Shown piece after piece: positions 3,571-29,123 of a stretch of 64,000 nt of DNA. Position numbers and translations under genes: made by a program. The notes below the pieces were generated by a model, which saw only the letters and a program-made list of their open reading frames with translations, did no database searches and had not been told where the DNA came from. Location of the stretch: contig CAJXZP010000004.1 in assembly GCA_913062955.1 (NCBI GenBank), forward strand, positions 1 through 64,000. Reading direction: 5' to 3'. Origin of the DNA: an uncultured Flavobacteriales bacterium (GTDB taxonomy: Bacteria > Bacteroidota > Bacteroidia > Flavobacteriales_G > Salibacteraceae). Within the stretch, counting starts at the first letter, position 1. Each line of letters starts with the position of its first letter.

Positions 3571-4416
3571 ATGAAAATAGTTTTTACATTCATTATTCTA
3601 TTCTGTAGTATCTCTGGTTCTTATGCTCAAAAAGGATGGAACCAAGATTACAGTCGTAAAAATCAATTCTTCGGACATTGGGGATACAATGTTTCGGGGT
3701 ACTCCAATTCAGATATATCCTTTGTAGGTCAGGATTACAATTTCACGTTGTATGATGTACAAGCCACGGACCGTCCCACTCCATTTGATTGGGATACTTA
3801 TTTCAATCCAGGTACTATTTCTATTCCGCAATGGAATTTACGTTTCGGTTATTTCATTAGCAATCGTTGGAGTTTGTCCATAGGTACCGATCATATGAAA
3901 TACGTTATGGTTCAAGATCAATACGTGGCTATGGAAGGCTATATTAACATTGAAAACGGTTCTCATAACGGAGCCTATAATCGCCAAGCTAAAAAGCTCA
4001 CGGATGATTTCTTGAAATTTGAACATACGGATGGCTTGAATTATGCGAGTGTGGAAGCAGAATACCATGGGAACATTTATCAATTTAACGAAAAACACAG
4101 TATTGATTATTATATTGGCCCTGGTATTGGACTACTTGTTCCACGTTCTAACGTTACTCTAATGGAGTTCCCTCGTTACGATGCCTTTCATTTAGCCGGA
4201 TTCGGAATGTCGGCTAAAATGGGTATTCAAGCTATATTATGGAAACATTTAACTTTTAATGCCGAATGGAAAAACGGGTTCATTAGTATGCAAGACATTC
4301 TAACGACTGGCAAAAGCCCGAATGACCGATCGATGCAAAATTTTTGGTTTACTGAATTTACCGGCACCATTGGTTTTATTATGGATTTCACGAAGAAAAC
4401 TAAAAAGATAGAATAA
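3571..4416 (+). CDS. Outer-membrane beta-barrel protein
   Basis: 281 residues with a cleavable signal peptide (MKIVFTFIILFCSISGSYAQ, cleavage after AQ). The mature protein is rich in alternating aromatic strands ('WNLRFGYFISNRWSLSIGTDHMKYVM', 'IDYYIGPGIGLLVPR') and ends in strands typical of porin-like barrels of Bacteroidota. The repeated pattern of 'G-Y-hydrophobic' strands supports an outer-membrane location. No catalytic motif is visible. It converges with the AI-2E family gene, whose stop codon lies 1 base away, so their transcripts must overlap or share a very short termination region. Confidence 0.75.
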   Translation: MKIVFTFIILFCSISGSYAQKGWNQDYSRKNQFFGHWGYNVSGYSNSDISFVGQDYNFTLYDVQATDRPTPFDWDTYFNPGTISIPQWNLRFGYFISNRWSLSIGTDHMKYVMVQDQYVAMEGYINIENGSHNGAYNRQAKKLTDDFLKFEHTDGLNYASVEAEYHGNIYQFNEKHSIDYYIGPGIGLLVPRSNVTLMEFPRYDAFHLAGFGMSAKMGIQAILWKHLTFNAEWKNGFISMQDILTTGKSPNDRSMQNFWFTEFTGTIGFIMDFTKKTKKIE

Positions 4417-28252: not shown

Positions 28253-28268
28253 GTTTCAAATATAAAAA

Positions 28269-28297
28269 AAAATGCCCCTTTAAAAAAAGGGGCATTT
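28269..28297 (-). terminator. Terminator of the sigma factor / Cys-rich peptide unit
   Basis: AAATGCCCC / GGGGCATTT stem with a T-run on the minus strand, 21 bases after the Cys-rich peptide gene. A-rich loop; it could work weakly in both directions. Confidence 0.8.
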
Positions 28298-28317: not shown

Positions 28318-28431
28318 TTAACAGCAACTAACTGGCGCGCAATTACAATCGCATTGACAGCTTACTGTTTCGTTGGTATTACCGTTACAATTGCAATTTT
28401 GAGTGTTGCAGCAATTTTCTTGATCTTTCAT
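28318..28431 (-). CDS. 37-residue Cys-rich metallothionein-like peptide
   Basis: ATG 28431 to TAA 28318-28320 encodes 37 residues, 10 of them Cys. The order is 'ENCCNTQNCNCNG', then 'SCQCDCNCAPVSCC', giving CC, CxC, CxCxCxC and CC clusters. There is no signal peptide or hydrophobic segment. Such density suggests metal binding (Cu, Zn, Cd) or thiol chemistry; this is inference. The gene lies 73 bases downstream of the sigma factor gene, has its own promoter-like element identical in layout to that of the sigma gene, and ends in a strong terminator. These flanking signals support a real gene despite its size. It matches no family I can name. Confidence 0.65.
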   Translation of the reverse strand: MKDQENCCNTQNCNCNGNTNETVSCQCDCNCAPVSCC

Positions 28432-28469
28432 TTTTTTGTGTTTTAAAATTCAACTTACTTTCATCTATA

Positions 28470-28496
28470 TAGACGGCCAAGTTGAAAAAAGACGCA
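28470..28496 (-). promoter_or_regulatory. Putative ECF-type promoter of the Cys-rich peptide gene
   Basis: On the minus strand TGCGTC (28496-28491), 15 bases beginning TTTTT, then CGTCTA (28475-28470). The same two boxes with the same spacing precede the sigma factor gene. The ATG lies 39 bases downstream. An inverted repeat (TTCAACTT / AAGTTGAA at 28449-28456 and 28479-28486) brackets the second box. Confidence 0.6.
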
Positions 28497-28504
28497 ATTG
28501 AAAG

Positions 28505-29029
28505 TTAACAATTACAGTTATCGGAAGAAATGATATTCCCATATTTATCAGACTCCAATCCACAACAATCTACAAAAGACTGTTTGAGTTTTACCCGAGC
28601 TCGTTGCAAACGAGACTTCACTGTAGAATAACTCATTTCGTGAGAAGCCGCATATTCCTTTTGCGATACATTGTTATAGGTAGTAGCCATCAGCAGGTCT
28701 CGTTCTACTTTAGGCATTTGTAAAATAAATGGACGCAAACATTTGGAAAAATCTTTAGTCACCTCCTCCACCTCATCCGGTAAAGAGGATTCTAAATCCA
28801 AATCACTTGTTTCCAATTTCTTTTTTCGGTAGAAATCAATAATGGTGTTTCGGGTAATTTGATACACCCAACTAGCGACTTTATCCTGGTTTTGAAGCTG
28901 CTTAATGGTTTTATGAATCTTGATAAAGACCTCTTGTAAAATGTCTTTAGCTACCTCATCTTCATTGACTCGGCTTTTAATAAACCCTAAAAGCTCTTCG
29001 TTAAATTCTTTCCAAATTTTAGTCGTCAT
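28505..29029 (-). CDS. ECF RNA polymerase sigma factor, SigZ-like, with Cys-rich C-terminus
   Basis: 174 residues from ATG 29029, chosen because 'AACGAGGTGT' just upstream is a good ribosome binding site and the family sequence starts there ('MTTKIWKEFNEELLGFIKSR'). Region 2: 'AKDILQEVFIKIHKTIKQL' and 'ASWVYQITRNTIIDFYRKKK'. Region 4: 'LPKVERDLLM'-like helix and 'QKEYAASHEMSYSTVKSRLQ'. The C-terminal tail 'DCCGLESDKYGNII..DNCNC' resembles SigZ ('CC.FE.D..GNVI') and has four Cys. No anti-sigma gene is adjacent. Cys-rich tails act as metal sensors in CorE-type ECF factors, so a similar role is possible here. It probably drives its own promoter and that of the Cys-rich peptide. Confidence 0.88.
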   Translation of the reverse strand: MTTKIWKEFNEELLGFIKSRVNEDEVAKDILQEVFIKIHKTIKQLQNQDKVASWVYQITRNTIIDFYRKKKLETSDLDLESSLPDEVEEVTKDFSKCLRPFILQMPKVERDLLMATTYNNVSQKEYAASHEMSYSTVKSRLQRARVKLKQSFVDCCGLESDKYGNIISSDNCNC

Positions 29030-29046
29030 ACACCTCGTTTTGAGAG

Positions 29047-29073
29047 TAGACGAAGTTACTGGAAAAAGACGCA
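29047..29073 (-). promoter_or_regulatory. Putative autoregulated ECF promoter of the sigma factor gene
   Basis: Minus strand TGCGTC (29073-29068), 15-base spacer starting TTTTT, CGTCTA (29052-29047). The ATG at 29029 would leave a leader of only about 12 bases, which still holds the AGGTG ribosome binding site. Confidence 0.6.
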
Positions 29074-29087
29074 CTAATAAACCGGTC

Positions 29088-29123
29088 CACGAGACATTTC
29101 GGTTTCAACCGAAACGTCTCGTG
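29088..29123. repeat. 36-bp near-perfect inverted repeat between dnaE and the sigma gene
   Basis: Arms of 17 bases, CACGAGACATTTCGGTT and AACCGAAACGTCTCGTG, separated by TC, with one mismatch. It starts 9 bases after the dnaE stop and ends 15 bases before the ECF-type -35 box. There is no T-run, so it could be an operator, a rho-type or processing hairpin, or a cruciform site. Confidence 0.85.

Follow-up and report, generated by a model that had tools for sequence, protein, structure and literature searches.

CorE is an ECF sigma factor without a linked anti-sigma factor, whose C-terminal Cys-rich domain (CRD) senses the redox state of copper (PMC3107203; reviewed in PMC8999054). Four cysteines are invariant in its tail, C181, C184, C192 and C194, in the pattern CxxC...CxC (PMC3107203). 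The CorE tail spans 38 residues, a further CxC motif lies in the linker between sigma2 and sigma4, and the neighbouring genes handle copper; the published list of CRD sigma factors contains no Bacteroidota. Cys-rich peptides and arsenic genes, in turn, are known from bacterial metallothioneins, which are tiny, Cys-dense, devoid of aromatic residues and controlled by a repressor, and from ars operons controlled by ArsR.

We analysed a stretch of 64,000 nucleotides from an uncultured Flavobacteriales bacterium (hereafter the window; assembly of 3.91 Mb in 131 contigs, 96% complete), which holds a sigma factor gene of the SigZ family (sigZ) next to a gene for a Cys-rich peptide. The two genes probably form a so far undescribed metal(loid)-sensing circuit, in which SigZ shares one promoter type with the tiny peptide gene. 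The features of the locus, from upstream to downstream, are as follows.

29088..29123, minus strand: hairpin with a stem of about 17 bp and no T run, between the dnaE-like gene and sigZ, read from the sequence
29047..29073, minus strand: promoter-like element of sigZ, TGCGTCTTTTTCCAGTAACTTCGTCTA, with -35 TGCGTC, a 15-nt spacer and -10 CGTCTA; kept in relatives
28505..29029, minus strand: SigZ-family ECF sigma factor of 174 aa (TIGR02959; sigma-70 r2 and r4 domains), with ATG 29029 as the best start
28739-28741, minus strand: single linker cysteine, Cys97, present in 44 of the 68 SigZ relatives aligned
28508..28567, minus strand: Cys tail of the sigma factor, from CC (155-156) to CNC (172, 174), four Cys; kept in SigZ relatives
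28470..28496, minus strand: promoter-like element of the peptide gene, TGCGTCTTTTTTCAACTTGGCCGTCTA, with TGCGTC, a 15-nt spacer and CGTCTA; kept in relatives
28318..28431, minus strand: peptide of 37 aa with 10 Cys, MKDQENCCNTQNCNCNGNTNETVSCQCDCNCAPVSCC; relatives at other SigZ loci
28262..28297 (or 28297-28270), minus strand: intrinsic terminator with a 12-bp stem and a T run, downstream of the peptide gene

The ORF upstream of this pair is a dnaE-like gene, and downstream lie genes for a 263-aa protein and a bestrophin; no anti-sigma gene was recognised in this neighbourhood. The hairpin probably separates the dnaE-like and sigZ transcripts; since it lies 5' of sigZ and the terminator 3' of the peptide gene, the two genes form a separate small unit. 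The sigZ transcript is expected to start at about 29040, with an 11-nt leader, and that of the peptide gene at about 28463, the latter predicted to run for roughly 200 nt to the terminator. An earlier note, made from the letters of this DNA, had described a SigZ-like factor with four tail cysteines and no adjacent anti-sigma gene, a 10-Cys peptide with the pattern CC, CxC, CxCxCxC, CC, and two TGCGTC-N15-CGTCTA elements at 29073-29047 and 28496-28470. We recovered all of these, the element positions being exact and the name SigZ being borne out by a family model.

The sigma factor scores 180 bits against that model, NCBIfam TIGR02959 (SigZ; cut-off 168.65), and is the best and the sole one to pass it among 20 ECF matches in the genome; against the stricter SigZ model PRK09637 (NF007215) it reaches 197.1, below the cut-off of 212. 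In a tree, it clusters with five other SigZ proteins, all of them peptide-bearing (SH-aLRT 86, not starred). Among the 68 SigZ relatives in the alignment, 63-64 keep its CC pair at 155-156 and 62 keep its last Cys, and three or more tail cysteines are found in 65 of 69 SigZ proteins versus 0 of 30 other ECFs. The CC...CxC tail is family-wide in SigZ, common to nearly all Bacteroidota relatives examined, and absent from the other ECFs compared. An AlphaFold model built from four sequences was weak (pLDDT 70, pTM 0.43).

SigZ resembles CorE and CorE2 of Myxococcus xanthus (former ECF44, now partly ECF238) in that it is an ECF factor without a linked anti-sigma factor, carries a short C-terminal Cys-rich extension with a CxC near its end, and is linked to metal handling (PMC3107203, PMC8999054). 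The number of tail cysteines is equal, whereas the first pair (CC instead of CxxC) and the spacing differ, and the linker holds the single Cys97 in place of CxC, which occurs in only 2 of 69 SigZ proteins. We therefore rejected membership in the CorE-like group (former ECF44) and do not file SigZ under CorE, although it shares the CorE principle. By analogy, we propose that SigZ works like CorE, with a metal-dependent activity exerted through its Cys tail, and we infer that this tail is the sensor.

In both window elements the 15-nt spacer begins with TTTTT, and the peptide element begins 8 nt past the sigZ stop codon. CGTC is a usual -10 of ECF promoters, and SigZ itself is predicted to read both. 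TGCGTC-N15-CGTCTA occurs twice in the window, against 0.00 expected from 100 shuffles, and a pattern search of the 3.91 Mb genome yielded only these two copies, both at sigZ and the peptide gene and none at unrelated sites. The loosened form TGCGTC-N14-17-CGTC returned the same two sites only, compared with 11 for its reversed control; in this genome, stray sites of the loosened form are possibly avoided, or base composition accounts for their scarcity.

We further searched for TGCGTCYTTTN{11,12}CGTC in 63 SigZ-positive and 63 SigZ-negative Bacteroidota genomes. This strict pattern was present in 29 of the 63 SigZ-positive genomes (42 sites) versus 2 of the 63 SigZ-negative ones (2 sites), a difference with a Fisher p of 1e-8 when genome relatedness is ignored; the reversed control gave 5 sites in the SigZ-positive and 5 in the SigZ-negative genomes. 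By coordinates, about 31 of the 42 strict sites (about three quarters) are found near sigZ, at a distance of up to roughly 1 kb. The strict element is absent from about half of the SigZ-positive genomes; uncontrolled inspection shows looser forms (TGCATC, CGACTA) in several of these. Where TGCGTC-to-CGTC spacings of 14-17 nt were allowed, 15 (29 sites) and 16 (30 sites) were found, with the fixed letters partly imposed by the search pattern. That the repeat is a chance similarity or the binding site of another regulator, not a SigZ promoter, is very improbable in view of its exclusivity to this locus genome-wide, its near absence from SigZ-negative genomes, the fixed 15-16 nt spacing, the T-rich start of the spacer and CGTC as an ECF -10; on the first two grounds we rejected a chance or unrelated repeat.

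Some strict sites lie away from sigZ. Those in five genomes, which have no convincing target, are probably chance occurrences. In one genome (G500), an unlinked element (L171, 1467-1856) stands before a small, apparently exported protein with an HMA domain. Two others of doubtful reality, in G500 and in G607 of the same family (L173 and L174), are located inside a ferredoxin-like gene and some hundred bases upstream of genes for exported proteins with a CC-rich acidic stretch.

SigZ relatives were gathered from the order, the class and the phylum. Eight of their loci repeat the pair of elements together with a Cys-rich peptide located 3' of sigZ, and two more do so with TGCATC as the first half. 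In one further order, examined last, a close SigZ was present in four new genomes, all of which carry the full layout: one element upstream of sigZ, another 5-10 nt past the sigZ stop, and a Cys-rich peptide of 31-42 aa that begins 69-77 nt past this stop. Over 69 SigZ loci, the motif was found at 29, a Cys-rich peptide at 27 and an arsenic-type gene at 29, with mostly the peptide or the arsenic-type gene alone, while each of the three was found at 0 of 30 loci of other ECFs. The interpretation in the earlier note, namely autoregulation through a promoter type shared with a Cys-rich partner, is thereby supported overall: this layout recurs in other Bacteroidota, and the element is specific to the locus and conserved upstream of orthologues, the four last-examined genomes included. 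The note had also taken the unit to be undescribed. In the open-access literature searched, we found no description of a SigZ regulon or signal, of a link between SigZ and arsenic, or of the peptide, which is not proof of absence. As a correction to the note, the two-gene unit does not stand alone and represents one version of a broader SigZ regulon.

A second arrangement was observed at nine loci, where a gene for a CTCxxCxC-type peptide lies 5' of sigZ and is preceded by a looser element, TGCATC or TGTATC followed by TGTCTA or GGTCTA. Two loci of other genomes (L100 in G054 and L106 in G249) have elements before sigZ and also before a PAP2-type gene, together with an opposite-strand element before a 19-codon ORF ending in GGCCGGLC(D/G)C.

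The 37-aa peptide of the window contains neither an aromatic residue nor His. Like bacterial metallothioneins, it is predicted to sequester ions, and it shares their small size and Cys density. In contrast to them, the peptides of SigZ loci match no model, their length and Cys pattern differ widely from genus to genus, and the window peptide is predicted to be controlled by an ECF sigma factor. Searches of ten peptides against Pfam and NCBIfam gave no match at E values up to 10, so that assignment to known metallothionein models was rejected. A RiPP precursor was likewise rejected, with no maturation enzyme recognised among the neighbour ORFs read. For closely related peptides of other SigZ loci (the window's own being too divergent from its nearest relatives), pN was 0.05-0.22 versus a pS of 0.5-1.1, with nearly all Cys retained; SigZ-linked peptides that are closely related to each other evolve as real proteins under purifying selection. 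The tight linkage, the co-regulation and the CC and CxC motifs that resemble the tail would also suit a peptide that binds SigZ as an anti-sigma factor or co-sensor instead of acting as an effector. We consider this distinctly unlikely, as detoxification genes without a neighbouring peptide are found at many SigZ loci, and the wide variation in peptide length and Cys pattern fits ion binding better than a protein interface.

Across the SigZ-positive genomes, the genes preceded by a site include sigZ itself, those for Cys-rich peptides on the 3' or 5' side of sigZ, and arsenic genes. The element lies directly before arsM (arsenite methyltransferase) at three loci and directly before ArsI/CadI genes at four, with an ACR3 pump following the ArsI/CadI gene in one case (L125); these assignments exceed the model cut-offs (NF008823, NF041414 and TIGR00832 for arsM, ArsI/CadI and ACR3, respectively). 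ArsC-like and aquaporin neighbours at one locus, as well as SO_0444-like permeases beside some sigZ genes, fall below them. On a Hymenobacter plasmid, sigZ lies 2 kb from arsC-ACR3 and is preceded by AGCGTCTTTTTT...CGTCTA. The motif alone also led to a 72-aa Cys-rich peptide on a contig without sigZ (L168, 1624-1910; G236, contig 264), whose element lies 42 nt upstream and which would be an unlinked member of the SigZ regulon. Because the same promoter precedes arsM and arsI/cadI in relatives, the metal or thiol response suggested in the earlier note is strengthened, and the best reading of the relatives is that SigZ output would be a metallothionein-like peptide or arsenic detoxification. The outputs in the relatives (arsM, arsI/cadI, ACR3, arsC-like and aquaporin genes) are the standard set of ArsR-controlled ars operons; the difference lies in the predicted control by a sigma factor and an ECF-type promoter, replacing ArsR or beside it. 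Compared with the known SigZ family, the shared promoter and these peptide and arsenic outputs are new.

Arsenite, judging by the relatives, is the leading candidate for the inducer. A recognised arsenic-type gene is found at only about 40% of SigZ loci. For SigZ proteins of Priestia and Vibrio (plasmid records) no arsenic neighbour was found, which confines the support for a link with arsenic to Bacteroidota. In the genome of the window, a separate operon with DUF6428-like, ArsC-like and ACR3 genes (L186, G000:C28:38761-39750) has no SigZ element, and ArsM was not found; arsenic may therefore not be the signal here, and another soft ion may act instead. On the Priestia megaterium plasmid (L198), TGCATCTTTTTTCATTTTATCTCGTCA stands at about 3922-3948 on the minus strand, some 38 nt upstream of a gene for an aldo/keto reductase that is oriented divergently from sigZ, and judging by this site the promoter type may extend to Bacillota.

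Other signals would leave the circuit unchanged. Like CorE and CorE2, SigZ might respond to copper, zinc or cadmium, and the peptide would then be an ordinary metallothionein. Sensing of Cu, Cd and Zn is known for tails of the CorE type (PMC8999054, PMC3107203), the unlinked L171 element precedes an HMA-domain protein, SO_0444-like permeases adjoin some sigZ genes, albeit below cut-off, and the ArsI/CadI neighbours may point to cadmium. We regard this as a serious but doubtful alternative, given that arsM, ACR3 and arsC-like genes belong to arsenic families and that, in the loci read, we noticed no copper operon close to sigZ. Alternatively, oxidation of the tail could sense thiol or disulfide stress or electrophiles: the CC pair is able to form a disulfide, Cys-rich peptides are able to buffer thiols, and a few SigZ-type sites lie away from metal genes (one at a PAP2 and one at a MatE gene). 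This is unlikely, since the enzymes and pumps encoded beside sigZ in relatives belong to arsenic or metal families (arsM, arsI/cadI, ACR3, arsC-like) and no thioredoxin or peroxiredoxin gene was noticed while reading neighbours.

We thus favour, with reasonable confidence, the reading in which SigZ is an autoregulated sensor free of an anti-sigma factor, induces the Cys-rich peptide when a thiol-binding metal(loid) occupies its tail, and is subject to feedback by this peptide. At the sequence level it is supported by the pair of elements, which are conserved and almost exclusively associated with sigZ, by the selection on related peptides, by the family-wide Cys tail and by the elements before arsenic genes in relatives. 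At first, the sigZ promoter would yield only a little SigZ. A metal(loid) with affinity for thiols, most probably As(III) or a comparable soft ion, would then occupy the CC...CxC tail at the C-terminus, with linker Cys97 perhaps taking part, and switch the protein into an active shape. The active SigZ-RNA polymerase would then initiate at both TGCGTC-TTTTT-CGTCTA promoters, one amplifying sigZ and the other yielding a short mRNA for the 10-Cys peptide. The peptide would sequester the ion and protect the cell and, by competing with the SigZ tail for the ion, turn the circuit off.

More tentatively, and at somewhat less than even chances in our estimate, the SigZ proteins may constitute a widely distributed class of one-component sigma factors that sense metal(loid)s, are marked by the CC...CxC tail and govern the arsenic defence of Bacteroidota, with the peptides acting as arsenic-sequestering micro-metallothioneins that reset the sensor by ion competition. 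SigZ is a named family without a regulon or signal in the literature searched, and its promoter, likely signal class and compact targets now make it testable. If true, the circuit would provide a sigma-factor route to arsenic or metal control beside ArsR and would reveal a large unannotated set of Cys-rich micropeptides, and the unit of two promoters and two genes would serve as a simple metal(loid) biosensor.
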